From assembly GCF_002210095.1 (NCBI RefSeq), contig NZ_AQQR01000008.1, positions 1 to 64,000 of the forward strand: DNA of 64,000 nucleotides, written 5' to 3'. The stretch is from Marinibacterium profundimaris (GTDB lineage Bacteria; Pseudomonadota; Alphaproteobacteria; Rhodobacterales; Rhodobacteraceae). The number at the start of each line of letters is the position of its first letter. The first letter of the stretch is position 1. The notes beneath the pieces were generated by a model. It was given only the letters and a program-made list of their open reading frames with translations, made no database searches and was not told the origin of the DNA. Below, one piece after another: positions 18,044 through 62,329 of this stretch. Position numbers and translations under genes: made by a program.

Positions 18044-18221
18044 TTTAATACCAAGCTATGGGATCTTTGTAGATGTTTTTACCACTAGAGTTGTGTTTTC
18101 TGGTTTTTCTGTTGACCGAGCTGCGGGAAGAGCCTCAGATTAAGCCATGTTGGCCGGGGGTGCGACGTCTGGCCCGCCAAAAAGCAGAGCAAATCGAATC
18201 CCAACTTGGAGAAGCTTGAAG

Positions 18222-19817
18222 ATGACGGTCAAATTAAGAAAGGCAGGTCTGATGCTTGCCGCGGCCGGGGCGTTCAGTTCCGCCGCGTTCAGCGTCGCGG
18301 CCCAGGACGAGGTCCAGAAGGGCGGCACTGCCATCATTCACATGAATTCCGAGCAGCGCATCCTGAACCCTGCGCTGAGAGCGTCGACCGGGGTCTACAA
18401 CATCTCGGGCAAGATCATGGAACCCCTGATCGACAAGAGCTACGACGGCTACGAGCCGGTGCTGGCCACCGAATGGTCCGGCTCCGAGGATGGCAGCCAG
18501 ATCACCGTCAAGCTGCGCGAAGGCGTGAAATGGCATGACGGCGAGGATTTCACCTGTGAAGATGTCGCCTTCTCGGCGATGGAAATGTGGAAGGAGCTGC
18601 TGAACTACTCCTCCGCGCTGCAGGCCAACCTGGAAAGCGTCGACTGCCCCGATCCGCATACGGCCGTGTTCAACTATTCCAAGCCGATGCCGCTGGAACT
18701 CTTCGTGGCCGCGATGCCGGATCTCGGCCACCCGGTGCCCAAGCACCTTTACGAAGGCACCGACCTTCTGAAAAACGAATACAACAACGCGCCCGTCGGC
18801 ACGGGCCCCTTCAAGTTCGTCGAATACCAGCGCGGCCAGTACGTGATGGCCGAGAAAAACGAGGACTACTGGCGTGACGGGTATCCGTATCTCGACCGGA
18901 TCGTCTGGCGCTTCATCAAGGACAAGTCCGCTGCCGCCGCCGCTCTCGAGGCCGGCGAGGTGCATGAATCCGGGTTCATCGGGGTCTCCATGGCGGATGT
19001 CGAGCGTCTGGCCGAGGACGACCGTTTCGATGTCGGGACCAAGGGGTACGAGAACAACGTTGCCCACTCGACCGTCGAGTTCAATCACCGCAACCCGATC
19101 CTGGCCGATCTGAAGGTGCGTCAGGCCATCTATCACGGCCTGGATATCGACTATGCGATCGACACGATCATGCGCGGCTTCGCCAAGCCGGGCCGCGGCC
19201 CCGTGCCCAGTGCCGGCGGGATCAACTATACCGACGACGTGCCGACCTATCCCTACGATCCCGAGCTTGCCAAGCAGATGCTGGACGAGGCGGGCTACCC
19301 GGTCCAGGACGACGGCTTCCGGTTCAAGCTGCGCCACCGTCCCGCGCCCTGGGGCGAATACACCCAGCTCTGGGCCGAGTATTTCGCCCAGGCCATGAAG
19401 GAGATCGACATCGACGTCGAGCTGCTGACCAATGACGCGCCGGGCTTCCTGAGCGGGGTCTATCGCGACCACGATTTCGACACGGCGAACGGCTGGCACC
19501 AGTTCCGGTCGGACCCGGCCGTCTCGACGATGGTCTGGCTTCGGTCGGGTCAGCCCAACGGCACGCCCTGGACCAACCAGTTCGGCTGGAAGAGCGAAGA
19601 GATCGACACCATGATCGACGAGGCCGCATCCGAGCTGGATGTCGAGAAACGCGCCGAGATGTATCACCAGATCCAGGTGCGCGCGATGGAAGAGCTGCCG
19701 GTGATCTTCGCGATCGAGCATCCCTTCATCTCGGTCACCTCCAAGAAGCTGAAGAACCATCACAATACCCCGCGCTGGACGTCCTCCAGCTGGTATGACC
19801 TCTGGCTCGAACAGTAA
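18222..19817 (+). CDS. Peptide-type ABC transporter substrate-binding protein (SBP family 5)
   Basis: A 531-residue periplasmic binding protein of SBP family 5 (DppA/OppA type), with a signal peptide ending near FSVAAQ. Family-typical stretches are LREGVKWHDGEDFTCEDVAF, GTGPFKFVEYQRGQYVMAEK and the C-terminal EELPVIFAIEHPF. It delivers a peptide-like ligand to the permeases encoded next. ATG 18222 has GGAG ten bases upstream. It is the first gene of an operon reaching to 28006. The ligand may be a modified peptide or amino-acid derivative, judged from the enzymes downstream. Confidence 0.92.
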   Translation: MTVKLRKAGLMLAAAGAFSSAAFSVAAQDEVQKGGTAIIHMNSEQRILNPALRASTGVYNISGKIMEPLIDKSYDGYEPVLATEWSGSEDGSQITVKLREGVKWHDGEDFTCEDVAFSAMEMWKELLNYSSALQANLESVDCPDPHTAVFNYSKPMPLELFVAAMPDLGHPVPKHLYEGTDLLKNEYNNAPVGTGPFKFVEYQRGQYVMAEKNEDYWRDGYPYLDRIVWRFIKDKSAAAAALEAGEVHESGFIGVSMADVERLAEDDRFDVGTKGYENNVAHSTVEFNHRNPILADLKVRQAIYHGLDIDYAIDTIMRGFAKPGRGPVPSAGGINYTDDVPTYPYDPELAKQMLDEAGYPVQDDGFRFKLRHRPAPWGEYTQLWAEYFAQAMKEIDIDVELLTNDAPGFLSGVYRDHDFDTANGWHQFRSDPAVSTMVWLRSGQPNGTPWTNQFGWKSEEIDTMIDEAASELDVEKRAEMYHQIQVRAMEELPVIFAIEHPFISVTSKKLKNHHNTPRWTSSSWYDLWLEQ

Positions 19818-44897: not shown

Positions 44898-45714
44898 GAA
44901 GCCCGTCTCCGTCCTTGATCCGCTCCGGATGGGTGAAAGTGTCAAAGCCGTCGTCCCGCGTGCGGGCGATCAGCGTGAGGCCGGCCTCCCCGGCCTGGCG
45001 CACGGCCAGCGCGGTGGGGGCCGAGACCGCGATCAGCACCGAGGCCCCGGCGATGGCGCATTTCTGCACCATTTCCACCGACACGCGGCTGGTGATCACG
45101 AAGGCGCCGGCGGTGGCATCGGTGCCGCCGGCCGCCAGCGCGCCGATCAGCTTGTCGAGCGCGTTGTGCCGGCCCACGTCTTCGCGGACCAGCGTCACGC
45201 CATGCCCCGGCTGCAGGAACCCCGCGCCATGAACCGCGCGGGTCCTGTCGCGCAGGGGCTGCATTGACGACAGCTCGGCCACCGCCCGCGTCACCTCGGC
45301 CCGCTTCAGCTGCAGCCCGTCGCGGACCCGGGGCAGGGGGCGCGTCGCCTCCTCCAGGCTGTCGATGCCGCACAGGCCGCAGCCCACGGGCCCCGACATC
45401 ATCCGCCGCCGCCGCGCCAGCGCCGCGGCGCGCCCGGGCGAGAGCCACATGCGGATCTCGATCCCGGTGCTGTGCGGCAGGACCTCAAGGTCGCGGATCT
45501 GGGCGGCTTCGGTCACGATGCCTTCGGTCAGCGAGAAGCCCAGGGCGAAATCCGCCAGGTCATGCGGCGTGGCCATCATGACCGCCTGGGTGGAGCCGTT
45601 GTAGACCAGGGCCACCGGCACTTCCTCGGGGATGGGCCGGTGGACGGGGGCCGAAGCCCCGTCGCGCATGGCGGTGCCCCGCATCATGTGCTCGCCCCGG
45701 GCCATCACCGTCAT
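44887..45714 (-). CDS. fdhD: Formate dehydrogenase accessory sulfurtransferase FdhD/FdsC
   Basis: A 275-residue FdhD-family protein. FdhD passes sulfur from a cysteine desulfurase to the molybdenum cofactor before it enters formate dehydrogenase. The catalytic cysteine pair lies in PVGCGLCGIDSLEEA, and RAVHGAGFLQPG and REDVGRHNALDKLIG are also diagnostic. In the R. capsulatus-type operon the gene is called fdsC. Its start overlaps the fdsA stop (ATGA). Confidence 0.95.
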   Translation of the reverse strand: MTVMARGEHMMRGTAMRDGASAPVHRPIPEEVPVALVYNGSTQAVMMATPHDLADFALGFSLTEGIVTEAAQIRDLEVLPHSTGIEIRMWLSPGRAAALARRRRMMSGPVGCGLCGIDSLEEATRPLPRVRDGLQLKRAEVTRAVAELSSMQPLRDRTRAVHGAGFLQPGHGVTLVREDVGRHNALDKLIGALAAGGTDATAGAFVITSRVSVEMVQKCAIAGASVLIAVSAPTALAVRQAGEAGLTLIARTRDDGFDTFTHPERIKDGDGLHVA

Positions 45715-48635
45715 TCCGCCGCCGGCAGGATGCGGCGCGATTGCGCGGCCTGGGCTGCGTAATCCTCCTGCCAGTCGCTCGGCCCGTTGGACAGGCTGAC
45801 CTGAACCGCCGTCACCTTGTATTCCGGGCAGTTGGTGGCCCAGTCGGAATAATCCGTGGTGATCACGTTGGCCTGCGTGTCCGGGTGGTGGAAGGTGGTA
45901 TAGACCACGCCCGGCGACATCCGCTCGCTGATCTTCGCGCGCAGCGTCGTCTCGCCCGAGCGCGAGGCCAGCTTCAGCCAGTCGTTGTCCTTGATCCCGC
46001 GCAGCTCGGCGTCGTGGGGATGGATTTCCAGCACGTCCTCGGGGTGCCAGACGGAATTGTCCGTCCGCCGGGTCTGGGCGCCGACGTTGTACTGCGACAG
46101 GATCCGCCCCGTCGTCAGCAGCAGCGGGAAGCGCGGGCCGGTCTTTTCATCGGTGGCCACGTATTCGGTCACGATGAACTTCCCCTTGCCGCGCATGAAG
46201 CCGTCGACATGCATCATCGGCGTGCCGTCGGGATGGTCCTCGTTGCAGGGCCATTGCACCGATCCGACACGCTCCAGCAGCTCATAGCTCACCCCGGAGA
46301 AGCTGGGCGTCGTGGCCGCGATCTCGTCCATGATCTGGGTCGGGTGGGTGTAATGCCAGCCCGCGCCCATGGCATTGGCGAGCAGCTGCGTGATCTCCCA
46401 GTCGGCATAGCCGTTGCGCGGCGCCATCACCTTGCGGACGCGGTTGATCCGGCGCTCGGCGTTGGTGAAGGTGCCGTCCTTTTCCAGGAAGGAAGAGCCG
46501 GGCAGGAAGACATGAGCGTAATTCGCCGTCTCGTTCAGGAAGAGGTCATGCACGATGACGCATTCCATCGCCGCGAGGCCGGCGGCCACGTGTTTCGTGT
46601 CGGGATCCGACTGCAGGATGTCCTCGCCCTGGCAGTAAAGCCCCTTGAAGGTGCCCTCGACGGCGGCATCCAGCATGTTGGGGATGCGCAGCCCCGGCTC
46701 GGGGTCGATCGGCACGCCCCAGACCTCGGCGAACAGGTCGCGGACCTCGGCGTTCTTGACGTGGCGATAGCCCGGCAGTTCATGCGGGAACGAGCCCATG
46801 TCGCACGAGCCCTGCACGTTGTTCTGGCCGCGCAGCGGGTTCACGCCCACGCCCTCGCGCCCGATGTTGCCGGTCATCATGGCAAGGTTGGCGATGCCGA
46901 TCACTGTGGTGGAGCCCTGCGAATGCTCGGTCACGCCCAGCCCGTAGTAGATCGCGCCGTTGCCGCCGGTGGCATAAAGCCGGGCGGCCTCGCGCAGGGT
47001 CTGCGGGTCGACACCGGTCAGCAGCGCGGTCGCCTCGGGCGAATGGCGCGGGTCGCTGACGAATTCCATGTATTCCTTGAACTCGGCCCAGTCGCAGCGT
47101 TCGTGGATGAAGGTCTCGTCGTAAAGCCCCTCGGTCACGATCACATGGGCCAGCGCGGTGACGACGGCCACGTTGGTGCCGGGGCGCAGCGGCAGGTGGT
47201 GTTCGGCCGCGATATGCGCCGATTTCACCAGGTCGATCCGGCGCGGATCGACGACGATCAGCTTCGCCCCCTGCCGCAGCCGCTTTTTCAGCCGCGAGGC
47301 AAAGACCGGGTGGCCGTCGGTCGGGTTGGCGCCGATCACCATCACCACGTCGGATTGCTCAACCGAGTCGAAATCCTGCGTGCCGGCGCTGGTGCCATAG
47401 GTCTGGCCCAGCCCATAGCCGGTGGGCGAATGGCAGACGCGGGCGCAGGTGTCGGTGTTGTTGTTGCCGAAGACCGCGCGGGTCAGCTTCTGGACCAGGT
47501 AGGTCTCTTCGTTGGTGCAGCGGCTGGAGGTGATGACCCCGATCGACTGCTGGCCATATTTCTCCTGCAGGCCGCGCATGCGGCTGGCGGCGAAGCTCAG
47601 CGCCTCGTCCCATTCGACCTCCTGCCAGGGCTGGTCGATGCTGTCGCGGATCATCGGCTTCAGGATGCGGTCGCCGTGGTTGGCGTAGCCATAGGCAAAC
47701 CGCCCCTTCACGCAGCTGTGGCCCCGGTTCGCCTTGCCGTGCTTGTAGGGGACCATGCGGACCAGCTCGTCGCCGTTCAGCTCGGCCTTGAAGGAGCAGC
47801 CGACGCCACAATAGGCGCAGGTGGTGATGACCGAACGTTCCGGCGTGCCGAGCTCGGCGATGGATTTCTCCTGCAGCGTGGCGGTGGGGCAGGCCTGCAC
47901 GCAAGCGCCGCAGCTGACGCAGTCGGAGGACAGGAAATCGTCCTGCGGGGTGCCGGCCGAAACCCGGCTGTCGAAACCGCGCCCCTCGATCGTCAGGGCG
48001 AAGGTGCCCTGGACCTCTTCACAGGCGCGGACGCAGCGGTTGCAGACGATGCACTTGGAGGGATCGTAGCTGAAATAGGGGTTGGAATCGTCCTTGGGGA
48101 TGTAAAGCGGGTTGCCCAGATCGCCCTCGGCCGCCCGGGCGCGCGCGTCGCCCTGGGCCAGGATCCCGGCGCCGGACTTGTCATAGTGATTGGCGCCGCT
48201 TTCATAGCGCATGTCGCGCAGGCCCACGGCGCCGGCCATGTCCTGCAGTTCGCAATCGCCATTGGCCGAGCAGGTCAGGCAGTCCAGCGGGTGGTCGGAG
48301 ATATACAGCTCCATCACGCCCTTGCGGATCTTCTTGACCTTGCTCGACTGGGTGTGAACCACCATGCCCTCGGTCACCGGCGTGGTGCAGGAGGCCGGCG
48401 TGCCGCGCCGGCCCTCGATCTCGACCACGCAAAGCCGGCAGGAGCCGAAGGCCTCCAGGCTGTCGGTGGCGCAAAGCTTCGGGATGTCGAGCCCGGCCTC
48501 GGCCGCCGCGCGCATGACGCTGGTGCCTTGCGGGACGGTGACGGGGAAGCCGTCGATGCTCAGTGTAACCTTGGTGGCGGACCGGGACGCGGGTGTGCCC
48601 ATGTCGCGGTCATCGGGGATGATGAAGTCTTTCAT
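45711..48635 (-). CDS. fdsA: NAD-dependent formate dehydrogenase alpha subunit (Mo, FeS)
   Basis: The 974-residue catalytic subunit oxidises formate to carbon dioxide at a molybdenum bis-MGD centre in the cytoplasm. The N-terminal [2Fe-2S] ligands are Cys55, Cys66, Cys69 and Cys83. A His/Cys-ligated cluster lies in HPLDCLTCSANGDC. Two [4Fe-4S] sites follow (CIVCNRCVRAC and CVSCGACVQAC), then CAYCGVGCSF. The Mo ligand Cys and adjacent His lie in TDTCARVCHSPTGYGL. The C-terminal molybdopterin-binding domain includes LLLTTGRILSQYNVGAQTRR. GAGGAGG precedes the ATG. Length and clusters match Fds-type enzymes. Confidence 0.97.
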   Translation of the reverse strand: MKDFIIPDDRDMGTPASRSATKVTLSIDGFPVTVPQGTSVMRAAAEAGLDIPKLCATDSLEAFGSCRLCVVEIEGRRGTPASCTTPVTEGMVVHTQSSKVKKIRKGVMELYISDHPLDCLTCSANGDCELQDMAGAVGLRDMRYESGANHYDKSGAGILAQGDARARAAEGDLGNPLYIPKDDSNPYFSYDPSKCIVCNRCVRACEEVQGTFALTIEGRGFDSRVSAGTPQDDFLSSDCVSCGACVQACPTATLQEKSIAELGTPERSVITTCAYCGVGCSFKAELNGDELVRMVPYKHGKANRGHSCVKGRFAYGYANHGDRILKPMIRDSIDQPWQEVEWDEALSFAASRMRGLQEKYGQQSIGVITSSRCTNEETYLVQKLTRAVFGNNNTDTCARVCHSPTGYGLGQTYGTSAGTQDFDSVEQSDVVMVIGANPTDGHPVFASRLKKRLRQGAKLIVVDPRRIDLVKSAHIAAEHHLPLRPGTNVAVVTALAHVIVTEGLYDETFIHERCDWAEFKEYMEFVSDPRHSPEATALLTGVDPQTLREAARLYATGGNGAIYYGLGVTEHSQGSTTVIGIANLAMMTGNIGREGVGVNPLRGQNNVQGSCDMGSFPHELPGYRHVKNAEVRDLFAEVWGVPIDPEPGLRIPNMLDAAVEGTFKGLYCQGEDILQSDPDTKHVAAGLAAMECVIVHDLFLNETANYAHVFLPGSSFLEKDGTFTNAERRINRVRKVMAPRNGYADWEITQLLANAMGAGWHYTHPTQIMDEIAATTPSFSGVSYELLERVGSVQWPCNEDHPDGTPMMHVDGFMRGKGKFIVTEYVATDEKTGPRFPLLLTTGRILSQYNVGAQTRRTDNSVWHPEDVLEIHPHDAELRGIKDNDWLKLASRSGETTLRAKISERMSPGVVYTTFHHPDTQANVITTDYSDWATNCPEYKVTAVQVSLSNGPSDWQEDYAAQAAQSRRILPAAE

Positions 48636-48726
48636 GGCCGTGCCTCCTCGTTGGCTCGGAAAAATGGGGAAATCGCCCGGGGTGGCCTTGGCGGCGCGCC
48701 CCGGACGTCTTGACGTCGGTCCGGGA

Positions 48727-50265
48727 TCACTCCGCCGCGACTTTGCGCGAGACAGAGAACTCCTCGGGGAAGTGGCGCAGCGCGCTCATCACCGGGTAGG
48801 GGGTGAAGCCGCCGAGCGCGCAGAGCGAACCGTCGGTCATCGTGTCGCAAAGGTCGGTCAGGATCTCGACGGCGCCGCCGTCGCCCCGGCCGATGCGGTC
48901 CAGCGTTTCGACGCCGCGCACCGCGCCGATGCGGCAGGGCGTGCACTTGCCGCAGCTTTCGATGGCGCAGAATTCCATGGCGAAGCGCGCCATGGCGAGC
49001 ATGTCGGCGGTGTCGTCGAAGACCACCAGCCCGGCATGGCCGATCAGCGCCTTCTGGCCGTCGAATTCCTCGTAGCCGAAGGGCGTGTCGAACTGGTGCA
49101 CCGGCAGGTAGGCGCCCAGCGGGCCGCCGACCTGTACCGCCTTCACCGGCCGGCCCGAGGCGGTGCCGCCGCCGATCTCCTCGACGATCTCGCCCAGCGG
49201 CATGCCGAAGGCGGTCTCAAAGAGCCCGCCGTATTTCACGTTGCCGGCGATCTGCAGAGGGATCGTCCCGCGCGACCGGCCCAGGCCGAAATCGCGGTAG
49301 TGTTCGGCGCCCTTCTCGAAGATCACCGGCACGGTCGCCAGAGAGATCACGTTGTTCACCACCGTCGGGCGGCCCAGGAACCCTTCGAGCGCCGGCAGCG
49401 GCGGCTTGGCCCGAACGATGCCGCGTTTGCCTTCGAGCGAGTTCAGCAGGCTGGTTTCCTCGCCGCAGACATAGGCGCCCGCGCCCGAGCGGATTTCCAT
49501 GTCGAAGGCGTGGGCCGACCCCAGGACGCTGTCGCCCAGCAGGCCGAAGACCCTTGCGCGGCGAACGGCCTCGGTCATCACGCGGATCGCGTCGGGATAT
49601 TCCGACCGCAGGTAGACATAGCCCTTCGTGGCCCCCACGCCGAGGCCCGCGATGGCCATGCCCTCGATCAGGGTGAAGGGGTCGCCTTCCATGATCATGC
49701 GGTCGGCGAAGGTGCCGCTGTCGCCCTCGTCGGCATTGCAGACTATGTATTTCTGCGGCGCTTCGGCGTCCTTGACGGTGTTCCACTTGATGCCGGTGGG
49801 GAAACCCGCGCCGCCGCGACCGCGCAGGCCGCTGTCGGTCACCTCCTGCACGATGCCATCGCGGTCCATGTCCAGCGCGCGGCGCAGGCCGGACAGCCCG
49901 CCGTGGGCCTCGTAATCCTCCAGCGACAGCGGGTCGATCAGCCCGCAGCGGGCGAAGGTCAGGCGGGTCTGTTTCGCGAAGTACGGGATCTGCTCCACCG
50001 GGCCGAGCGCCAGCGCGTGGTCCCCGAAGGCCGCGTCGAACAGCGCCGGGACATCCTCGGCGGTCACCGGGCCGAAGCCGGTGCGGCCGGTCTCCGTCTC
50101 GACCTCCAGCAGCGGTTCCAGCCAGATCATCCCGCGCGTGCCGTTGCGCACCAGCGTCACATCGAGCCCGCGCGCCTTCGCCTCGGCCGTCACGGCGGCG
50201 GCGACCGCGTCGGCGCCCAATGCGCGGGCGGCGGCATCGGCGGGGACGTAGATCTTCATGCTCAT
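48727..50265 (-). CDS. fdsB: NAD-dependent formate dehydrogenase beta subunit (NADH/FMN)
   Basis: A 512-residue NuoF-like subunit that binds FMN and NAD and passes electrons from FdsA to NAD. The first ~110 residues form a thioredoxin-like domain. FMN/NAD motifs are SGLRGRGGAGFPTGIKW and NADEGDSGTFADRMIM. The [4Fe-4S] ligands lie in ESCGKCTPCRIG plus the later Cys in SLCALGGFTPYP. Its start overlaps the fdsG stop (ATGA). A 91-base gap with a small hairpin (48700-48725) separates it from fdsA, which lies on its 3' coordinate side but is transcribed after... see orientation: fdsA starts at 48635, downstream of fdsB. Confidence 0.96.
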   Translation of the reverse strand: MSMKIYVPADAAARALGADAVAAAVTAEAKARGLDVTLVRNGTRGMIWLEPLLEVETETGRTGFGPVTAEDVPALFDAAFGDHALALGPVEQIPYFAKQTRLTFARCGLIDPLSLEDYEAHGGLSGLRRALDMDRDGIVQEVTDSGLRGRGGAGFPTGIKWNTVKDAEAPQKYIVCNADEGDSGTFADRMIMEGDPFTLIEGMAIAGLGVGATKGYVYLRSEYPDAIRVMTEAVRRARVFGLLGDSVLGSAHAFDMEIRSGAGAYVCGEETSLLNSLEGKRGIVRAKPPLPALEGFLGRPTVVNNVISLATVPVIFEKGAEHYRDFGLGRSRGTIPLQIAGNVKYGGLFETAFGMPLGEIVEEIGGGTASGRPVKAVQVGGPLGAYLPVHQFDTPFGYEEFDGQKALIGHAGLVVFDDTADMLAMARFAMEFCAIESCGKCTPCRIGAVRGVETLDRIGRGDGGAVEILTDLCDTMTDGSLCALGGFTPYPVMSALRHFPEEFSVSRKVAAE

Positions 50266-50738
50266 GACCGGGCCTCCGCGAGAATCTTGTCCAGCCGCGC
50301 CTCGTTCAGCCTTGCGTGCAGCTTGTCGCCCACCATCGCCGCCGGGGCGCAGGCGCACAGGCCAAGGCAATAGACCGGCTCCACCGTCACCCGCCCGTCG
50401 GGCGAGGTGGCGTGCCAGTCAAGCCCGGCCTTCTCAAGCGCGCGGGCGGCCAGCGCCTCGGATCCCATGGACTGGCAGGCCTCGGCCCGGCAGATCTTGA
50501 CCACATGTCGGCCGGGGGGCGCCTTGCGGAAATCGTGGTAGAACGACATCACGCCGTGAACTTCGGCGCGGGTCAGGTTCAAGGCATCCGCGATCGGGGC
50601 CAGCGCCGCCTCGGGGACGTGGTCGAACTCTTCCTGCAGGGCATGGAAGATCGGCAGCATCGGGCCTTCGAGGTGCCGGTGTTCGGCGATGATTTCTTCG
50701 ATGCGCGCGGTCGGCGCCTCGGATGTGCTGGGTGACAT
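50262..50738 (-). CDS. fdsG: NAD-dependent formate dehydrogenase gamma subunit
   Basis: A 158-residue NuoE-like subunit with one [2Fe-2S] cluster held by the cysteines in KICRAEACQSMG and VYCLGLCACAPAAM. It relays electrons in the FdsABG complex. ATG 50738 was chosen as the start of the conserved part (MSPSTSEAPTARIEEIIAEH). It is the first gene of the operon, 88 bases after the LysR gene on the same strand. Confidence 0.95.
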   Translation of the reverse strand: MSPSTSEAPTARIEEIIAEHRHLEGPMLPIFHALQEEFDHVPEAALAPIADALNLTRAEVHGVMSFYHDFRKAPPGRHVVKICRAEACQSMGSEALAARALEKAGLDWHATSPDGRVTVEPVYCLGLCACAPAAMVGDKLHARLNEARLDKILAEARS

Positions 50739-53424: not shown

Positions 53425-54474
53425 ATGACATACGATCTGCAACTGGACGCGATCGCGGGGGATTTCGGCTTTCCCGAAGGCCCCGTGGCCATGAATGACG
53501 GAACCCTGCTGTTCGTGGATATCGAGGGCAAGAAGCTGGTCCGGATCAACGACCAGGGCGAGTGTCTGCTGGAGATCGACCTGCCCGGCGGACCGAATGG
53601 CGTGGCGATCGGGCCGGACGGGGCAGCCTATGTCTGCAACAACGGGGGGATCTATTCCTTCGTGCATTACCCGCCGGGCACCGACATGTTCAAGGTGCCC
53701 TTCCCGGATCGGTCCAGCTACCTGGGCGGCCGGATCCAGCGGGTCGATCTTGAGACGAAAGAGGTCACCGATCTCTATACCTCGCCCGCCGATCTGTCGG
53801 ATCCGGCGCCGCACGGCGTTCATCTTCTGGCTCCGGACGATATCGTCTTCGACAGCCAGGGGGGCTTCTGGTTCACGGATTCCGGGTTCGAGGACAGTTA
53901 CCAGCCGGCGGATGCCAAGAAAGGCACGCCCGAGCGGCCGGCCATGCACCACTACGGCGCCCTGTTCTACGCAACGATCGACGGCCAGAGCCTGACACGG
54001 ATCGCGACCGTGCCGATGGCGAACGGGGTCGGCCTCTCTCCGGACGAATCGAAACTCTATGTGTCCGATACCCTGGCCGGCCGGCTGTGGGAGATGGATA
54101 TCGAAGCGCCCGGCAAGGTGAAAGCCAGGGACGACGGTGCGCCCGGCCGTCTCGTGCTGTCCTTGCCGCCGGTCGCGGGGCGGCCGCAATGGCTTGACAG
54201 CCTGAAGGTCGAGGCCTCCGGCAAGGTCTGCATCGGCACGCTTTTCAACGGCGGGGTCACCGTCGTCGATCCTGCGGATGGCAGTTACGAACATGTCCCG
54301 GTGCCAAGCGCCTATTCGGACGAGAAGGGAACCCCGATCCCCGAGCTGTTCGTGACGAACCTCTGTTTCGGCGGCGAGGACATGATGGACGTGTGGATCA
54401 CCGCGTCGAGCGCGGGAAAGATCTTCAAGGGGGGATGGCCCCGGAGGGGGCTGAAGCTGGCCTTCACGGCCTGA
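53425..54474 (+). CDS. SMP-30/gluconolactonase-family protein
   Basis: A 349-residue six-bladed beta-propeller of the SMP-30/gluconolaconase/LRE family. Recognisable parts are FGFPEGPVAMNDGTLLFVDI (metal-binding Glu in PEGP), GGPNGVAIGPDGAAYVCNNG, GGFWFTDSGF and PMANGVGLSPDESKLYVSDT with the metal-binding Asn and Asp. Such enzymes hydrolyse lactones with a divalent metal. The substrate is unknown. GGGAGGG precedes the ATG. It is followed 158 bases later by the cyclase gene on the same strand. Confidence 0.88.
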   Translation: MTYDLQLDAIAGDFGFPEGPVAMNDGTLLFVDIEGKKLVRINDQGECLLEIDLPGGPNGVAIGPDGAAYVCNNGGIYSFVHYPPGTDMFKVPFPDRSSYLGGRIQRVDLETKEVTDLYTSPADLSDPAPHGVHLLAPDDIVFDSQGGFWFTDSGFEDSYQPADAKKGTPERPAMHHYGALFYATIDGQSLTRIATVPMANGVGLSPDESKLYVSDTLAGRLWEMDIEAPGKVKARDDGAPGRLVLSLPPVAGRPQWLDSLKVEASGKVCIGTLFNGGVTVVDPADGSYEHVPVPSAYSDEKGTPIPELFVTNLCFGGEDMMDVWITASSAGKIFKGGWPRRGLKLAFTA

Positions 54475-54632
54475 GGCCGGCGCGAAGGCAGGTGCCCTGA
54501 AAGGCGCCATTGGACCGGGCCGGGCAGGCGCCCGGGCCGGGGTGGGTGACGGACGATTGGCAAGGCGGGGGTAAGCCGTTAACCTTTTCCAAGGCTGTGC
54601 CAGGCGGGGGCAATGGCATTAACTCAAGCTCG

Positions 54633-57600
54633 ATGACACATGTGGGAGAACGTCGCCAGGTGTCCGTGCTGTTCGCGGACATGGTGGGCTTCACGGCCGC
54701 TGTAGAGCGGCTGGGAGAGGACGCGACCCTGTCCTTCGCCCAGATGATCTATCAGATGATGACCGAAACGGTCGCCGGGCACGGCGGCTCGGTCCGCAGC
54801 TATGCGGGCGACAGCGTCATGGCGATCTTCGGCCTGCCCGAGGCGCAGGAAGACGGCGCGCTGCGGGCCTGCCGCGCGGCGCTGGCCATCCACGAGGTCT
54901 TTCGCCAGGCCGCCGACGAAATCGAGGCGCAATACGGCATCCGCCCCCAGATGCGCGCCGGGGTCAGTTCGGGCTCGGCCATGCTGGCGCAGATCGAGGG
55001 CGAAGGCGCGCCGGTGACGGCGGTGGGCAACACGGTGAACCTGGCCTCGCGCATCCAGACCCTGTCGCCCGCCGGCGGCTGCCTGATCTGCGACACCACG
55101 CGGCGGCAGGTCGAATGGCAGGTCGATCTGAACTTCGAGGGCGAATACGACATCAAGGGCCTGTCGAAGTCCCGCAAGCTTTGGCGGCTGCTGTCGATCC
55201 GCGATGCCGCGACCCGGTTCGACGCGTCGGTCGCGCGCGGGCTGAGCGCCTATGTCGGGCGCGACGCGGAACGCGCCAGCATGGTTGCCGCGCTCGACAC
55301 GGCGCGGGCCGGGGGCTTTGCCGCCGTCGATCTGGCGGGAGAGGCGGGCCTGGGCAAGACCCGGCTGGTCTTCGAATTCCTGCAGGGCATCGATCCTGAG
55401 GGCATGCGCATCTACCGCGGCTATTGCGCCGCCGACGGGCAGCAGGTGCCCTTCTATCCCTTCCTCGAGGTGATGCGCAGCGCCTTCCGCGTCCGGTCCG
55501 AGGACGAACCGGCCGAGCAGGCGCGCAAGCTTCAGGCCGGGCTGCGCCAGCTGGGGATGGAAAGCACCGAGAACCTGGGCCTGCTTCTGAACCTGCTGGG
55601 CAGCGCCCCGCCCGAGGGCGCGCTGGAAGGGCTGGACGGCGTGCTGATCGGCCTGCGCACCCGTGACCTGTTGCGGGCGATGCTGACCGTGCAGGCCGCG
55701 GCACATCCGGTGATCCTGCTGATCGAGGACATCCACTGGATCGACGGCGCATCGGCCGAGTTCCTGGGCCGGCTGATCGAGGAGGGCGAGATCGGCAACC
55801 TGCTGATCATCCACACGCGAAGACCCAGCTACGTGCCCGGCTGGCTGGGCAGCCCGCATCTCACCAGCCTGCCGCTGAAGCCGCTTTCGGATGACGACAT
55901 CGGCCACCTGGTCCGCACCCGGCTGGGAGTCGAGAACCTGCCCCGGGGCCTGGTCGCGCGGGTAAGCGAACGCGCCGGAGGCAACCCGCTCTTCGGCGAG
56001 GAGATCCTGGGCTACCTGCTGGGCCACGGCGCGCTGCGGGTCAGCGACGGGCGGGCCGAGTTCGACGCCGACCTCGCCGCGCGCGGCCTGCCCGAGAGCA
56101 TGCAGAGCCTCTTTACCGCGCGACTCGACCGGCTGGAGCCGGGGGACAAGGCGTTGCTGCAGGCGGCCTCGGTCATCGGGCGGCGGTTCGACCCGGGTCT
56201 GCTGTCGGCGGTGGCGCGGCCGGACATCCCGGTGGGCGAGGCGCTGCGGCGGCTGCAGGCGAAGGACCTGGTGCGCCGCGAAGCCGGGTCGTCGGACTAC
56301 GCCTTCAAGCACGTCCTGCTGCGCGACACGGTCTACCAGGGGCTGCTGGCCGACCAGCGCGCCGCGCTTCACCTGGCCATCGCCACCGTGTTGGAACATC
56401 GCAACCGCGACCGCCTGGTCGAGGTCGCGGGCGCCCTGGCGCATCACTATGCCCTGACCGACCGGAGCGATCTGGCCTTCACGTACAACGTGCTGGCCGG
56501 GACCAAGGGCCTCGGCGTCTACTCGCTGGGAGAGGCGAACCAGTATTTCGAAACCGCGCTGGCGCTTTACGAGAGCGATCCGGCCTGCGCCAGCGACGCG
56601 GATTTCGCCGCCTTCCTGGCGGCCTATGCCTCCTGCGCGAACATCTCGCTGCGGATCACCACGCTGATCGACCTCGGCCCCCAGGTGCAGCCGATCCTCG
56701 CGCGGCTGGGCGACAGCTATCACCACGCGGTCTACCTGCATCACTACGTGTCCTGCCTGATCTACAACGGCCGCTACATCGACGCCTTCGAGCGGCAGCA
56801 AAGCCTGACCGCCATGGCCGAACGGCTGGGCACGCCCGAGGCGGCGGCCTATGCGCTGGTCAGCGAGCTGTCGGTCTCGTGCTATTGCGGGCACCTCACC
56901 TCGGAGGCCTTCGAGGCCAGGCGGCGCGAGGCCGAGGTGGCCATGGCCAGCGTCGAGGATGCCTACCTGCAGAACTTCTTCATGGCGATCCTGGCCTGGA
57001 ACGAGACAAGCCGCGGCCGGTTCGCGCAGGCCTACGAGGCCGTCGACCGGATGATGGTCCTGAGCGAGACGATGAAGGATCCGCGCGCCACCGGCTATGC
57101 CATGGCGCTGAAATCCCTGATCGCCATGCTAAGCGACGATCCGGCCCGCGCGCTCGAGATCTCGGACCGGGCGCTGGCCCTGTCGCAGGCCGAATTCGAA
57201 CGCGCCTCGGCCCAGGCGGCGCGGGCGGCCGCCCTGGTGCCGCTGAAGGGCGCCGCGGCGCTGCCCGAGGTGCAGTCCTTCGTCGACCGCTGCGAGGCGG
57301 CGGGCTGGGTCATGTTCATGTCGGGGCCGCACATGATGCAGGGGATCGCGATGACGATGGACGGGCGCATCGGCGACGGGCTGCATCATATCCAGGATGC
57401 CATCGTCCGGCGCGAAAGCGAAGGCTACGGCATCTCGGCCGACTGGTACCGGCTGTTCCTGGCCGAAGTCTACCTGGGCATCCTGACGGGCGAGGGCGAG
57501 GCCCCGCTGGGGGTGGTGCTGCGCAACGCGCGGTCGCTGATCACGGTGTTCCTGTTCGGGCCAGGGCGGATCGAGCGGCTGATCGGTAAGGCCTGCGCCA

Positions 57601-57800
57601 ATCCGCAGTTCGACCGCAACGGATTCTACTATGCGCGGGGCGAGATGATCCTCGGCCTGCTCTGCATGCACCGGAAGAAGCGGGAGAAGGCCATCGACCA
57701 CCTGCGCGAGGCACGCCGGATCGTCACCCAGATTGGCCCCTCGCCCTTCCTCGCCCGCATCGACAGCGCGCTTGAGACCCTGGGCGCGCGCAAGGTCTAG
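54633..57800 (+). CDS. Class III nucleotide cyclase fused to STAND-type ATPase and TPR-like repeats
   Basis: A 1055-residue multidomain protein. Residues 1-185 are a class III adenylate/guanylate cyclase domain with all core residues: metal-binding Asp16 (FADMVGF) and Asp60 (YAGDSVMAIFG), and transition-state Asn136 and Arg140 (VGNTVNLASR). Residues about 205-480 are a STAND/AAA ATPase with Walker A GEAGLGKT (236-243) and Walker B VILLIEDIHWID (about 359). The rest is helical and TPR-like. It is probably a soluble signalling hub making a cyclic nucleotide in response to a bound ligand or partner. ATG 54633 starts the conserved domain. Confidence 0.9.
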   Translation: MTHVGERRQVSVLFADMVGFTAAVERLGEDATLSFAQMIYQMMTETVAGHGGSVRSYAGDSVMAIFGLPEAQEDGALRACRAALAIHEVFRQAADEIEAQYGIRPQMRAGVSSGSAMLAQIEGEGAPVTAVGNTVNLASRIQTLSPAGGCLICDTTRRQVEWQVDLNFEGEYDIKGLSKSRKLWRLLSIRDAATRFDASVARGLSAYVGRDAERASMVAALDTARAGGFAAVDLAGEAGLGKTRLVFEFLQGIDPEGMRIYRGYCAADGQQVPFYPFLEVMRSAFRVRSEDEPAEQARKLQAGLRQLGMESTENLGLLLNLLGSAPPEGALEGLDGVLIGLRTRDLLRAMLTVQAAAHPVILLIEDIHWIDGASAEFLGRLIEEGEIGNLLIIHTRRPSYVPGWLGSPHLTSLPLKPLSDDDIGHLVRTRLGVENLPRGLVARVSERAGGNPLFGEEILGYLLGHGALRVSDGRAEFDADLAARGLPESMQSLFTARLDRLEPGDKALLQAASVIGRRFDPGLLSAVARPDIPVGEALRRLQAKDLVRREAGSSDYAFKHVLLRDTVYQGLLADQRAALHLAIATVLEHRNRDRLVEVAGALAHHYALTDRSDLAFTYNVLAGTKGLGVYSLGEANQYFETALALYESDPACASDADFAAFLAAYASCANISLRITTLIDLGPQVQPILARLGDSYHHAVYLHHYVSCLIYNGRYIDAFERQQSLTAMAERLGTPEAAAYALVSELSVSCYCGHLTSEAFEARRREAEVAMASVEDAYLQNFFMAILAWNETSRGRFAQAYEAVDRMMVLSETMKDPRATGYAMALKSLIAMLSDDPARALEISDRALALSQAEFERASAQAARAAALVPLKGAAALPEVQSFVDRCEAAGWVMFMSGPHMMQGIAMTMDGRIGDGLHHIQDAIVRRESEGYGISADWYRLFLAEVYLGILTGEGEAPLGVVLRNARSLITVFLFGPGRIERLIGKACANPQFDRNGFYYARGEMILGLLCMHRKKREKAIDHLREARRIVTQIGPSPFLARIDSALETLGARKV

Positions 57801-57831: not shown

Positions 57832-59250
57832 TCAGCTTTGCAGCTTCGACAGGTGGTCCAGCGCCGTCATGCTTGGCAGGAAGGTATAGGCCCCGCCCCG
57901 CGTGGTGATGAATCGCGGGAAGCCGCGCAGCCGGATCGTGCCGCCATCCTTCAGGGCCAGGTCGAACCAGCTGGTCTCGGGCACATTTGCGCCCAGGATG
58001 GGATCGTTGGCGCCGGTGATGTCGGGGTCCTGCAGGCCAAGGTTGATCCAGTCGCACATGACGGCCTCGAACTGCGCCCCGAGATTGGCACAGAGGAAAT
58101 TGCCCAGCAGACCGCGTTCGGCGTCCTTGTCGTTCTCCGGGTTGGCCGGGTCGAAATCCGGCCCGTAGGACATCCCCCGCCGCACGATCCGGCGCGAGTA
58201 ATGCGCCATGCGCTGCACGATCGGCCCGTTGCGCGGATTGGCCCGCCGGGTATGCGCGCCGGCCGGGCAGAGCGAGCGTTCGGTATAGTCGAAATTGGTC
58301 AGATGGCCCGGCGCGGGAGTCTCGGGATCGGTGGAATAGGGAGAGGTCTCGTACGGGGTGCCATTGCGCCAGCGCCCGCACATCTGGGCGGCCACGACCT
58401 CGCGCAGGGCGGCATGGCGGTCGAGCCCGCCGAACACGGTCTTCTCGGCCCCCTGCGGCAGCAGGTCGTCGACCCTGGGATGCCCCATAAGATAGGTCGC
58501 GGCCCTGGTCAGGTAGTCTTCGAAGGCGACCACGTCCTGCTTCAGCACCCGGAAGGCGTTGAAGGCGCCGTTCCGGCCCAGTTTGGCGGGCGATGGCACG
58601 CGGTAGCGGATCCCCTCGTAGCGGGTGTGATGGCCCAGCAGGATCGTGCCCAGCGGGTTCTCGGGTTCCCTGTCGTCGTCGCGCAGGGGGTTCAGCACGT
58701 GTTCGAACCGGGGCTGCGAGATGCTGTCGCGATAGCCGAAGAAGACCTTGTCCTCTGCCAGGTTGCGCCCGTCGCGCGCGGCGAGCACCCCGAAGGCCTG
58801 TCCGACCTGCGCCTGCACCCGGTCCAGATGGGCGGTATCGTTGGCATAGGTCGAGGCCACGAGGTGGACGCGGTCGGGCGTGTCGAAGGGCGGCGCCCAT
58901 TTGATCGGGGCGCTGTCGCCGAAATCCTTCAGCTTCTGCGCGCGCTTCGTCATGCCCTCGCGGAACTCGGTCGGGAAGCTCTGCAGGTCCGCCGCCGGCA
59001 CCCCAAGCGCCCGGAGCCCGGCATGGGTGATGCCGATGTTGAAGCAGAGGTCGGGCTTCTCCGACCATTTTTCAGAGCTTTCGCGGGTGATCTGCGGGGC
59101 CGTGTCGCTGTCGCCCGAGAGCGCGGCGGCAAGGAAGGCGCGGGCCTTGCGGCGGTCCGTGACCTCGAGCACCAGATGGCGCACCTGGCCCATGCGGTAG
59201 CCGCGCAGGATGTTGCCCTGGATGTCGGTAATGTCGAATTCGTCGTTCAC
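57832..59250 (-). CDS. DyP-type haem peroxidase
   Basis: A 472-residue protein of the dye-decolourising peroxidase superfamily. The distal motif is GYRDSISQPRFEH: the catalytic Asp is kept, but the second Gly of the usual GxxDG is Ser. The proximal haem histidine is probably in CPAGAHTRRANPRN. No signal peptide is seen, so it is cytoplasmic or encapsulated. Start GTG 59250 overlaps the preceding stop (GTGA), coupling it to the gene upstream. It is the third gene of an operon with a catalase-related protein. Its natural substrate is unknown. Confidence 0.85.
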   Translation of the reverse strand: MNDEFDITDIQGNILRGYRMGQVRHLVLEVTDRRKARAFLAAALSGDSDTAPQITRESSEKWSEKPDLCFNIGITHAGLRALGVPAADLQSFPTEFREGMTKRAQKLKDFGDSAPIKWAPPFDTPDRVHLVASTYANDTAHLDRVQAQVGQAFGVLAARDGRNLAEDKVFFGYRDSISQPRFEHVLNPLRDDDREPENPLGTILLGHHTRYEGIRYRVPSPAKLGRNGAFNAFRVLKQDVVAFEDYLTRAATYLMGHPRVDDLLPQGAEKTVFGGLDRHAALREVVAAQMCGRWRNGTPYETSPYSTDPETPAPGHLTNFDYTERSLCPAGAHTRRANPRNGPIVQRMAHYSRRIVRRGMSYGPDFDPANPENDKDAERGLLGNFLCANLGAQFEAVMCDWINLGLQDPDITGANDPILGANVPETSWFDLALKDGGTIRLRGFPRFITTRGGAYTFLPSMTALDHLSKLQS

Positions 59251-59966
59251 CAGCCCACTCCGAACTTGCTGCGCACCTGGGCCGCGGAATAGCCCGGGTA
59301 GGCGCGATAGCCGCCGCCCAGCGAAATGTTGGGATTCGCATGCAGCATCAGGATCAGGTCGCGCGGCAGGGTCTTGAGGTCATGCGGCTTGATGTCTTGC
59401 GGTGCGATGCCCCGTGCCTCGTCCATCAGGGTGAAGAGATCGGTGGGGAAATCCGGCGCCTGGAACAGGTCGTGATCGTGCACCCAGTCGATGAAGGCCT
59501 CGACGTTGTGGGCTGTCGGGATCAGCTTGTCTCCGCCCTCGACCACCGTCATCACCTCGTCGAAGACGCTGCCGATGGTGAAGATGAAGTCGCGGATGTA
59601 GTTGCTGAAATCCCCGTCGTAGACCGAGATCATGCAGATCTTGTCGTCCAGCAGCAGGAACCGCGCGAAATGCACCGTGCCGACATTGTCGAGCCCGGCG
59701 AAGATCTCGTCCACGTTCTGGGCAATGGCCAGCGCCGCCTCGGCCCGGCCGATGGCCGAGCTGTCCTTAAGCGGCATGATCAGGTTCATCATGCGCTGCA
59801 CGCTTTCGGTGGTCTGGGGCGTCTCTCGCGGGCCGCCGGGCATCTTCGGCGCCGGGGTGCGGGCAGCCCAATAGGGCAGGACCACGCGGCGCGACAGGAA
59901 CTTGAACCAGCCGCGCTGTGGCAGCGTGTCGACGTAGCGATCGAACCAGCCTGGGGTGTCGGCCAT
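59247..59966 (-). CDS. Uncharacterised protein, DyP-like ferredoxin-fold half
   Basis: A 239-residue protein that I do not recognise by name. Its centre, VGTVHFARFLLLDDKICMIS followed by VYDGDFSNYIRDF, reads like the ferredoxin-like beta-alpha-beta unit found in the DyP/chlorite-dismutase superfamily. A haem-binding GxxDG or proximal His motif is lacking. It begins 5 bases after the catalase-related gene and overlaps the DyP gene by 4 bases, so it is probably a partner or structural subunit of these haem proteins. No signal peptide or membrane helix is seen. Confidence 0.7.
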   Translation of the reverse strand: MADTPGWFDRYVDTLPQRGWFKFLSRRVVLPYWAARTPAPKMPGGPRETPQTTESVQRMMNLIMPLKDSSAIGRAEAALAIAQNVDEIFAGLDNVGTVHFARFLLLDDKICMISVYDGDFSNYIRDFIFTIGSVFDEVMTVVEGGDKLIPTAHNVEAFIDWVHDHDLFQAPDFPTDLFTLMDEARGIAPQDIKPHDLKTLPRDLILMLHANPNISLGGGYRAYPGYSAAQVRSKFGVGW

Positions 59967-59971
59967 GGGCT

Positions 59972-61054
59972 TCAGTCCTTCGCGAAGGGGCAGGGGGTGG
60001 CGTGGCGGTTCTCGCTGGAGGCCCGGTAGGCATCCCGCCGCGCCTTCAGGATCGGATCGCCCGACGGCGCGATCCCCGGGGTCAGCAGCCAGGGGTTGAA
60101 GCTGAGCTTCTCGCTGTCGGCCTCCTGGTCCTCTGCCACGTCGGTGATGGTGAGCGTGCCCATCATGATCCGCACCCGGTGCGGTGGCCAGGGGCGCGAG
60201 CAATCGTCGAAATCGTCGCCGATATCGCCAAGCTGCATCATCAGCGAGAACTCGGCCTTGCCGTCGCCGGCGAGGCGCTCGCGCAGTTCGTCCTGCAGGA
60301 AGGCGTCACGCGGAGGGTCGTTGTCATGCGCGGGCTGCACGCCCGAGACCGGTTGCCAGGTGAAACGGACATAGCGGTCCACGTCGTCGGAGCCTGTGAC
60401 GACGAAGGTATGGACGGCGTGATAGGCGGCGCGGGCATAGCTGGCCGGGGCGCCGATGGTTGCAGCGCCGAACGTCGGCAGCTGCGCAAAGAGGTTCTTG
60501 TTGGCGTATTCGAATCCGCCCTTGTCGGCATTCGTCGTCTCGCCGGGATAGGGGTTCCGCCTGGGCAGCATCATCTGAAGATAGTCCTTCACCTTGTCCC
60601 AGGCGCCTTCCCGGTCATAGGGTTCCTGGTGGGCGGCATTGATGAAATCCCACGCGCTCCGGGGCTCGGGCGCGAAGAAGGCGGGCAGGGTCATGGCGAG
60701 CAGGTCGGTGGATCTGGCCTCGGTCCCCCCGGTCAGATGAAAGCGGATGGCAAGGCCGCGCACGTCGGTCCAGCCGTCATGCAGCCTGTCGGCACCGGAC
60801 CCGTTCGAGAAACGCCCCGTCACTTCGATCCTGTCCCCGCCGAAATGCTCTGCCACGCAGTAGGAGCGGGCGACGGGTGAGGCGATGAAATGGCCCCTCA
60901 CCCCGATGCCGTTGGTGTGGACGGGCCGTCGTTGCGCGTTTCCATCTTCCCGCCAGAGGGCCTCGAACAGGGCCTCGCCCTGCGCCTTCTCCCCGTCCGG
61001 CCACACGGAAAACTTGCGCTCCATGTCGGGCGCCTCGGTCCTTCGATCGTCCAT
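59972..61054 (-). CDS. Catalase-related haem peroxidase
   Basis: A 360-residue protein of the short catalase-related family. The distal histidine is in RRPVHTNGIGVRGHF (His46). The distal asparagine of true catalases is replaced (LLAMTLPAFFAPEP where catalases have [12 protein letters not shown]). The C-terminal SGDPILKARRDAYRASS supplies the proximal tyrosine (about Tyr343). It lacks the catalase C-terminal half. Some relatives, such as the mycobacterial MfcaP and coral allene oxide synthase, act on fatty-acid hydroperoxides. ATG 61054 is the likely start; ATG 61024 is possible. It is the first gene of the operon, divergent from a patatin gene. Confidence 0.82.
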   Translation of the reverse strand: MDDRRTEAPDMERKFSVWPDGEKAQGEALFEALWREDGNAQRRPVHTNGIGVRGHFIASPVARSYCVAEHFGGDRIEVTGRFSNGSGADRLHDGWTDVRGLAIRFHLTGGTEARSTDLLAMTLPAFFAPEPRSAWDFINAAHQEPYDREGAWDKVKDYLQMMLPRRNPYPGETTNADKGGFEYANKNLFAQLPTFGAATIGAPASYARAAYHAVHTFVVTGSDDVDRYVRFTWQPVSGVQPAHDNDPPRDAFLQDELRERLAGDGKAEFSLMMQLGDIGDDFDDCSRPWPPHRVRIMMGTLTITDVAEDQEADSEKLSFNPWLLTPGIAPSGDPILKARRDAYRASSENRHATPCPFAKD

Positions 61055-61106
61055 TTTCCACCCCACCGAATCCGGAAGTCCCAAAAACGTAACATGGACT
61101 CGGCCC

Positions 61107-61150
61107 CCGGAAGGGTTCGAATTTTCGATAATTCCGGATTGTACCCGGAA
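61107..61150. promoter_or_regulatory. Candidate operator: three CCGGAA half-sites
   Basis: TTCCGGATTGTACCCGGAA (61132-61150) is an inverted repeat with 6-bp perfect arms and a 7-base spacer. A third half-site CCGGAA lies at 61107-61112. All are in the divergent catalase-related/patatin promoter region. The minus-strand TACAAT (61143-61138), a good -10, lies in the spacer. Confidence 0.45.
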
Positions 61151-61279
61151 AAGTCCTGACCTGAGTGACGTAACGGCAGGCACTGGGCCCTGCGCGGCCT
61201 GCGACGGGTCCGCCAAAGGTCTTTGAGAACGCCGCCCCGGGACGTACCATCCCCGGGCGTGGCAATCCGGATTGGCGTT

Positions 61280-62329
61280 ATGGCGTTCAAGGTTCTGTCC
61301 TGTGACGGCGGCGGGATCCGCGGATACCTGACCTGCCTCATTCTCAAGGCCCTGCAAGACGAGACCGGGTTTCTCGACAAGGTGGACGGGTTCTTCGGCA
61401 CCTCGACCGGCGGGCTGATTGCCGTTGCACTGGCCGACGGCCGGTCTCAGGGGCGCGACATGAGCGCGCTGCTGGACGAGATCACCGCGATCTACCGGCA
61501 CAGGGGAGACATGATCTTTCGCGAGGCCGAACGCGGGCGGATCCGCCGGTTGCTGCATGCGCTGATCGAACGGTCCGGGCGGGACAGCGGCCCGGGGCTG
61601 GTGAGTTCGCATTTCACCTCGCGCGGGCTGGCCGAGATCGGCGCGACGCTGGTGGCGGACCGGACGCTGGGCTCGATCCTGCCAGAGATCGTGCTCGCCG
61701 TACCGGCGGTCTGCCTCTACGCCGATGACGACACCGGCTGGGCGCCCTACAGCCTGACCAATCAGGAACTGCGGCGCGACGGCTTCTTCGACATGAGCGA
61801 TGTGCCGCTGCTGGACATCGCCCTGGCGACCTCGGCCGCGCAGACCTTCTTTCCGCCGCATCGCATCGTCACGCCCAGGCGCGATTTCGGCTATTTCACC
61901 GATGGTGGCGTCTTTGCCAACAACCCGGTGCTGAACGGGATCAACGTGGCCATCGCCGCCGGACGGGCGCAGGGCCTTGGCGATATCGAGGCGATGTCGG
62001 TAGGCACCGGCCTGCAGCCAAGCTCCATCTCCGAGGAGATGGTCAAGAACCCCGACGACTGGGGGCTGCTGAAATGGTTCGGGCTGACCTCGGGCGCGCC
62101 GCTGGGCGCGCTGCTGGATCTCGGGCTGACGACCTCGGCCGAAAATCAGTACTGGATCGCGCATCTTGTGCTGGATGACCGGCTGGTCCGGGTGAACCCG
62201 CCGCTGCCCCGGACCGTGGGCCTGACCTCGCGCGATCCCGAGGCCTACGCGATGATGGAACACGCCTGCCGAACCGCGATGGAAAGCCGCTCGTGGCAGC
62301 AGGCGCTGGACATGCTGCGCGGCTGGTAG
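61280..62329 (+). CDS. Patatin-like phospholipase
   Basis: A 349-residue patatin-family lipid acyl hydrolase. The oxyanion loop is CDGGGIRGYL (residues 8-17), the nucleophile motif GTSTGG (Ser42), and the catalytic Asp lies in FTDGGVFANNP (about Asp208). All catalytic parts are present. It should release fatty acids from membrane phospholipids. No signal peptide is visible, so it acts from the cytoplasmic side or is secreted by another route. ATG 61280 begins the conserved fold. It shares its promoter region with the haem-peroxidase operon. Confidence 0.92.
   Translation: MAFKVLSCDGGGIRGYLTCLILKALQDETGFLDKVDGFFGTSTGGLIAVALADGRSQGRDMSALLDEITAIYRHRGDMIFREAERGRIRRLLHALIERSGRDSGPGLVSSHFTSRGLAEIGATLVADRTLGSILPEIVLAVPAVCLYADDDTGWAPYSLTNQELRRDGFFDMSDVPLLDIALATSAAQTFFPPHRIVTPRRDFGYFTDGGVFANNPVLNGINVAIAAGRAQGLGDIEAMSVGTGLQPSSISEEMVKNPDDWGLLKWFGLTSGAPLGALLDLGLTTSAENQYWIAHLVLDDRLVRVNPPLPRTVGLTSRDPEAYAMMEHACRTAMESRSWQQALDMLRGW

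Follow-up and report, generated by a model that had tools for sequence, protein, structure and literature searches.

What might a dye-decolorizing (DyP-type) peroxidase be doing beside a catalase-related haem protein, a partner protein without a family match and a patatin-like phospholipase? These four genes lie together in a 64,000-nucleotide stretch of Marinibacterium profundimaris DNA (contig NZ_AQQR01000008.1, positions 1 to 64,000; hereafter the window), and an initial annotation had proposed that they form a lipid-hydroperoxide system. We add two genes that it overlooked, which are part of the same conserved unit and encode a class III nucleotide cyclase fused to AAA and TPR domains (cyclase-AAA-TPR) and an SMP-30-like protein. 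The genes of this module co-occur strictly, their catalytic residues are intact, the type of lipase is swapped between strains, and fatty-acid genes stand beside a wider set of its three-gene core. We consider lipid-hydroperoxide chemistry the best reading of these sequences and, with about even confidence, propose a transferable module that would free and convert oxidised (or oxidisable) fatty acids. The initial proposal is upheld in part: the fatty-acid neighbours favour it, but its argument from a missing active-site asparagine does not stand.

Distribution of the module and its acyl hydrolase slot

Is this neighbourhood more than an accident? Each protein was searched against a draw of 292 genomes from the order. 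Orthologs of the partner, the catalase-related protein, the DyP and the cyclase-AAA-TPR protein were found in the same 14 genomes (identities of at least 68%, 52%, 58% and 45%, respectively), which rules out a chance neighbourhood. Weaker matches were not counted as orthologs: DyP matches of at most 44% identity (11 of 25 genomes), cyclase matches of at most 33% (39 of 53, with two candidates scored per genome), patatin matches of at most 42% (9 of 17) and partial-length partner matches of 36–38% (2 of 16). The other 13 module genomes all keep the catalase-related, partner and DyP genes as direct neighbours in the same order. The cyclase-AAA-TPR ortholog in these 13 genomes is 45–56% identical, with the next best match at no more than 33%, and it adjoins the core in 12 of them. 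The exception is G076, in which the module (L023) and the cyclase (L055) lie on different contigs; the cyclase therefore need not adjoin the module. The stretches fetched for these 13 genomes include an SMP-30-like gene in 12; of all 16 module loci besides the window's, 15 have one in the stretch fetched. The flanks are variable: among open reading frames (ORFs) of at least 90 residues that lie outside the module families, no neighbour family occurred in more than two loci, except what we read from the sequence as ABC ATPases in four. Pairwise identities correlate between the module families (r 0.81–0.98), as expected if they travel together, and host relatedness alone could explain part of this correlation. 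Joint conservation, by which the initial annotation had proposed to judge its four genes, was borne out for the three-gene core; it failed for the patatin, whose orthologs occur in only 8 of the 14 genomes.

What takes the place of the patatin elsewhere? The window patatin is, as first described, catalytically complete, with the GGG oxyanion loop, the GxSxG and DG(G/A) motifs and the Ser-Asp dyad intact, and the three motifs are likewise intact in all seven other module patatins. Those seven patatin genes are codirectional with the catalase-related gene, whereas that of the window is transcribed divergently from it. A class 3 lipase (Lipase_3, 1.9e-18) occupies the slot in G109, and G664, a further congener, carries a 46% homolog of that lipase, divergent, between the catalase-related and SMP-30-like genes. 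Across 17 module genomes (the 14 of the order draw and three more; the search for class 3 lipase covered the fetched stretches), the slot, next to the catalase-related gene, holds a patatin in 8 and the unrelated class 3 lipase in 2, and neither was found in 7. The acyl hydrolase is thus exchangeable in the module.

A patatin near a nucleotide cyclase also recalls anti-phage signalling of the CBASS or Pycsar style, in which a cyclic nucleotide would switch on a membrane-destroying patatin. The window patatin shares its family, its dyad and its best curated-family resemblance with the CBASS phospholipase CapV (NCBIfam CBASS_lipase, 4.3e-33; PADLOC effector profile, 2.6e-42), the cyclase matches the Pycsar (PycC) profiles of PADLOC generically (5.1e-16), and the patchy distribution and variable flanks would suit a defence system. 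However, the CBASS_lipase score of 114.9 bits lies below the cut-off of 200, no CD-NTase was found among five proteins scanned, and the patatin is replaced by an unrelated lipase in two strains. The partner, catalase-related and DyP proteins gave no PADLOC match, and neither did eight further window proteins, the SMP-30-like protein and seven others. Moreover, the cyclase and the three-gene core persist without a patatin in 6 of the 14 genomes, and the core occurs without cyclase or patatin at 80 loci of a wider scan (see below). CBASS calls for a CD-NTase beside an effector that scores over the cut-off, and Pycsar for a pyrimidine cyclase with a TIR or membrane effector; CBASS/Pycsar was rejected as the best reading, and we regard an anti-phage role as decidedly unlikely. 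Separately, a patatin 42% identical to that of the window occurs without the module in G077 (L054, 9684–10793, minus strand), and its match to the PADLOC effector profile (7.6e-49) is stronger than that of the window patatin.

Which nucleotide the cyclase would make is uncertain. Class III cyclases carry a metal-binding Asp pair and an Asn...Arg pattern, and adenylate cyclases have a Lys for adenine. The Asp, Asn and Arg are seen in the window protein. The Lys position is Ser here; the pattern matched 11 of 12 orthologs, which have Asp in five, Gly in five and Ser in one.

The haem proteins and their partner

Do the two haem proteins look like scavengers of hydrogen peroxide (H2O2)? The best PDB match of the catalase-related protein is 3e4w (4.5e-28), which we take to be mycobacterial MAP-2744c; the name MfcaP, given to a relative in the initial annotation, could not be traced. 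The window protein keeps the distal His46 and the proximal Arg339 and Tyr343, and the distal His, the Ser and the proximal Arg/Tyr are kept in all 12 aligned module sequences (12 of 14; L032 and L034 were left out, as the right ORF was not picked up). The distal Asn of true catalases is indeed missing, as first noted, with Thr122 in its place. Thr holds this position in 11 of the 12 module sequences (the window and 11 others) and Asn in one, L023. In the wider three-gene set, Asn is kept in 79 of 79 catalase-related sequences, and the Deinococcus radiodurans relative has Thr. The residue before the distal His is Val45 in the window and Val in 12 of 12 module sequences; it is Ala in all 78 wider sequences with a letter at this position. 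Catalase has Val before the distal His.

By these residues the protein falls outside the true H2O2 catalases, which combine the distal His and Asn with the proximal Arg...Tyr. As a small catalase-core protein (360 aa) with the haem ligands, it resembles the catalase-related enzymes of fatty-acid hydroperoxides, and it has Val45 where coral allene oxide synthase (cAOS) has the Thr of its T66-H67 pair. The distal residues of cAOS are given as T66, H67 and N137 and are called identical to those of catalase in PMC5617202. The initial annotation had taken the absent Asn as a pointer to an oxylipin enzyme; this argument is ruled out, since cAOS keeps N137 and the wider set keeps its Asn. A plasmid search with the catalase-related protein gave no match at 1e-20.

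The DyP retains its distal Asp175 and Arg357 and proximal His333, with the GXXDG motif reading GYRDS, and the Asp, His and Arg are kept in 14 of 14 module sequences. It scores 39.8 with Pfam DyP_N (cut-off 27.5) and 73.2 with NCBIfam TIGR01413 (below the cut-off of 100.5), and Pfam Dyp_perox_C found no match in the source genome. Its top PDB relatives are 8re3 (1.3e-45) and 8re2 (1.1e-44). Because this pair differs by Met/Gly at the motif position mutated in PMC10820274, we infer that they are DrDyP of D. radiodurans, the nearest solved relative. The fifth GXXDG residue is altered in both DrDyP and the window DyP. According to PMC10820274, DyPs are built of ferredoxin-like domains and their physiological substrate is an open question; DrDyP is described there as a low-spin protein that shows no activity at pH 7.5 and whose substrate is doubtful, and the words 'catalase', 'operon' and 'lipid' are absent from the main text of that paper.

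We considered that the module might simply serve general defence against H2O2 and oxidative stress, with two haem proteins removing H2O2 and the other genes riding along. Both proteins belong by profile to the Catalase and DyP families, L025 carries a haem peroxidase gene (PF00141, 776 aa) beside the module, and katG lies near a Granulicella DyP. DR_A0146, by its number the D. radiodurans catalase-family relative, is counted among the three catalases of that organism in PMC7143949; however, the same source ranks it a less efficient H2O2 scavenger than KatE1. Ordinary H2O2 removal is already covered in the source genome, because a full-length large-subunit catalase (Catalase 1.5e-180, Catalase-rel and Catalase_C) is encoded at 1715–3784 on the minus strand of the same window. 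This catalase, the inactivity of DrDyP at pH 7.5 and the lesser scavenging by DR_A0146 all disfavour plain H2O2 removal, which would also leave the lipase, thioesterase and oleate hydratase neighbours unexplained. We therefore consider H2O2 defence unlikely, if still a serious competitor to lipid-hydroperoxide chemistry.

The partner matched no Pfam or NCBIfam family, and a sequence search of PDB gave 0 matches. Its AF2 model has a mean pLDDT of 61, and a beta-alpha-beta-beta-alpha core with values of about 65–85 suggests a ferredoxin-like fold at residues ~57–165. Alignments show a signature, T-x-H-x2-R followed by YDGD-x3-Y-x2-DF, whose residues are invariant in 34 aligned members and not in all of the more distant sequences. 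Foldseek returned dimeric ferredoxin-like barrels of the antibiotic-biosynthesis-monooxygenase (ABM) type, with a TM of ~0.6 by target; no E-value fell below 0.001, and the top matches were unrelated large enzymes with low TM. The partner may be a ferredoxin-like barrel, and it might act as a subunit or lid of the DyP. Could it instead be a cofactor-free oxygenase or cyclase in a biosynthetic cluster for a small molecule, such as a modified polyketide or furan lipid? The Foldseek matches include ABM and polyketide-cyclase folds, and an oxygenase role for the DyP is conceivable. These matches are not significant, however, and no conserved synthase, ligase or transporter was seen in the module, so that such a cluster appears very improbable.

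Fatty-acid genes around the three-gene core and a proposed function

Does the core keep other company elsewhere? Scanning the genome collection more widely, we obtained 296 relatives and kept the best 80. In all 80 loci, two of them cut by a contig edge, the catalase-related, partner and DyP genes occur in the same order and on the same strand. We compared a near zone (5 kb before and 3 kb after the core) with an equal length of far flank, and collapsed the loci at 80% DyP identity into 13 lineages. An acyl thioesterase lies near 38 of the 80 loci versus none in the far flank (4 of 13 lineages), an oleate hydratase near 19 versus none (3 lineages), a 3-hydroxyacyl-CoA dehydrogenase near 19 versus 1 (2 lineages) and TetR near 40 versus 4 (6 lineages). 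These fatty-acid neighbours support the lipid theme. We also observed a recurring layout in several genera, in which oleate hydratase, 3-hydroxyacyl-CoA dehydrogenase, thioesterase and TetR accompany the core (L074, L079, L080, L082, L085, L086, L089–L091, L094, L096, L098, L100, L101, L105, L108 and L137); it is apparently a transferred fatty-acid cassette. Its Novosphingobium/Sphingobium form has the same core in the same order as the window and differs in carrying TetR instead of the cyclase and a thioesterase instead of the patatin or lipase.

Further loci show the same association. Profile searches place a partner homolog next to the DyP in 4 of the 9 loci retrieved through a DyP match, and in 5 of the 6 retrieved through a weak match to the partner. 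Ten plasmid records were examined (8 of 67 chosen for variety, and 2 of 2 others); catalase-family, unknown and DyP genes occur together in five, including those of D. radiodurans and Novosphingobium. One gene interrupts the set on a Terrarubrum plasmid, and the Novosphingobium set lies beside oleate hydratase, 3-hydroxyacyl-CoA dehydrogenase and thioesterase genes. At the D. radiodurans locus of DR_A0145 (DrDyP; L056), the same three families are adjacent. This locus differs from the window in that the catalase-family gene is downstream, a 3-hydroxyacyl-CoA dehydrogenase adjoins, and no patatin, cyclase or SMP-30-like gene is annotated within the 16 kb shown.

A cousin cluster, L041 of genome G042 (6920–18488), holds a DyP, a barrel-like ORF, an animal-type haem peroxidase, a lipoxygenase and a cyclase-AAA-TPR protein 31% identical to that of the window, all within 12 kb. 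The lipoxygenase (2e-13) and the animal-type haem peroxidase (4e-67) lie between the DyP and the cyclase. These two genes add to the support for a lipid theme, and they are also of note in their own right, as a lipoxygenase gene next to a cyclooxygenase-like gene in a bacterium.

How does the module compare with known lipid-hydroperoxide systems? Catalase-related proteins acting with a lipoxygenase (LOX) or haem dioxygenase are already known: PMC11719350 describes catalase fusions with LOX or with haem dioxygenase, as well as the fungal Fg-cat, in fatty-acid hydroperoxide chemistry. The module shares the catalase core and haem-site residues with coral cAOS/cHPL-LOX, the cyanobacterial fusions and Fusarium Fg-cat, as these are presented in PMC5617202 and PMC11719350, and it shares lipid-oxidising genes with them in the cousin cluster. 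Unlike them, it has Val before the distal His and Thr in place of the Asn, its partner and DyP genes are constant, and it includes no lipoxygenase; a lipoxygenase or haem dioxygenase stands beside the DyP/cyclase pair in the cousin alone.

Several points count against lipid-hydroperoxide chemistry. First, the near zones and counted families were picked post hoc, from data already seen; the thioesterase and oleate hydratase links come from just 4 and 3 of the 13 lineages, and neighbours inside one transferred cassette are not independent. Second, homologs of the cyclase, patatin, lipoxygenase and cyclooxygenase-like genes number 0 in the 80 wider loci, and in 7 of the 17 module loci neither a patatin nor, within the fetched stretches, a class 3 lipase was found (one of these, L159, is at a contig edge with the slot not fully visible, and another, L032, has an upstream beta-lactamase-family hydrolase). 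Third, the source genome gave no match for lipoxygenase (PF00305), which the initial annotation had already missed in the window, or for animal haem peroxidase (PF03098). Among 34 genomes searched (the 14 module genomes, G042 and 19 others), a lipoxygenase match occurred in G042 only; the lipoxygenase cousin is a single genome. At L041, no catalase-related gene was found in 20 kb, the lipoxygenase and haem peroxidase genes are on the opposite strand from the DyP, and the ORF that resembles the partner has weak support (hhalign probability 53%). Besides G042, animal-type haem peroxidases occur in 6 of the 14 module genomes and 7 of the 19 others, with no link to the module. A plasmid search with the L041 lipoxygenase gave only 2 weak matches.

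On balance, we favour lipid-hydroperoxide chemistry, and the module could work as follows. The cyclase-AAA-TPR protein, as a cyclase-STAND sensor, would sense a stress or ligand, make a cyclic nucleotide and so control the module. The patatin, or the class 3 lipase in some strains, would release acyl chains from the lipids of the membrane. The DyP, which the ferredoxin-like partner would either hold or assist, and the catalase-related protein would act in succession on fatty acids and their hydroperoxides, so that the peroxide is reduced or rearranged. Opening of lactones, or handling of a late product, might fall to the SMP-30-like protein. What we infer in this scheme is the substrate, the sequence in which the steps follow, how the cyclic nucleotide connects to the enzymes, and any signal that is produced. 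A bolder version, which we regard as a long shot, is a lipoxygenase-free, cyclic-nucleotide-controlled bacterial oxylipin relay. Here the acyl chains freed by the lipase or patatin would meet a fatty-acid oxygenase or hydroperoxidase formed by the DyP and its barrel partner, the catalase-related protein would rearrange the hydroperoxide, and an SMP-30-like lactonase would finish the signal.

If such a relay exists, this DyP branch would have its natural place in the three-gene core, in organisms ranging from Deinococcus to Alphaproteobacteria. The module may indicate what dye-decolorizing peroxidases do in nature: the fixed core with its lipase, thioesterase and oleate hydratase neighbours points to a concrete class of substrate and to a protein with which the DyP can be co-expressed, which makes the question of DyP substrates directly testable. 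Should this reading be right, bacteria would also possess a phospholipase-to-oxylipin-like pathway under cyclic-nucleotide control. Among the papers listed, our searches of the open-licence literature turned up no report of a fixed core with a DyP and partner, exchangeable lipases and a cyclase, and none combining DyP, catalase-related protein and patatin, oleate hydratase and DyP, or DyP-type and fatty acid hydroperoxide; for DyP-type with catalase family protein, nothing was on topic, judged by title.

Layout of the locus in the window

The four genes of the initial annotation are where it had placed them, with the core tightly packed on the minus strand and the patatin divergent, as judged by ORFs and family profiles (Table 1). 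The partner gene shares 4 bases with the DyP gene, and 5 bases separate the catalase-related and partner genes. Owing to this spacing, the translational coupling proposed for the three genes is plausible. The shared divergent promoter was not borne out: a promoter scan of the gap between the catalase-related and patatin genes found a single weak sigma-70-like match on the plus (patatin) strand and none on the catalase-related strand. The true start of the cyclase-AAA-TPR protein is probably nearer 54630.

Table 1. Features of the module in the window, with their supporting profiles or scans.
Feature	Position	Strand	Evidence
SMP-30/gluconolactonase-like beta-propeller protein (possible lactonase)	53425–54474	+	Pfam SGL 6.2e-34
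Class III nucleotide cyclase + AAA_16 (STAND-like) + TPR protein	54510–57800	+	Guanylate_cyc 2.8e-15, AAA_16 5.3e-21
DyP-type peroxidase	57832–59250	-	Pfam DyP_N 6.7e-10
Partner protein (family-less)	59247–59966	-	Pfam/NCBIfam match: none
Catalase-related haem protein, 360 aa	59972–61054	-	Pfam Catalase 8.8e-27
Intergenic region, 225 bases, catalase-related/patatin (divergent)	61055–61279		Sequence, promoter scan
Patatin-like phospholipase	61280–62329	+	Pfam Patatin 4.1e-21

Beside the module, at 45711–50370 on the minus strand, lie genes for a molybdopterin oxidoreductase (formate-dehydrogenase-like) and a NuoF-like partner, which look unrelated to it.

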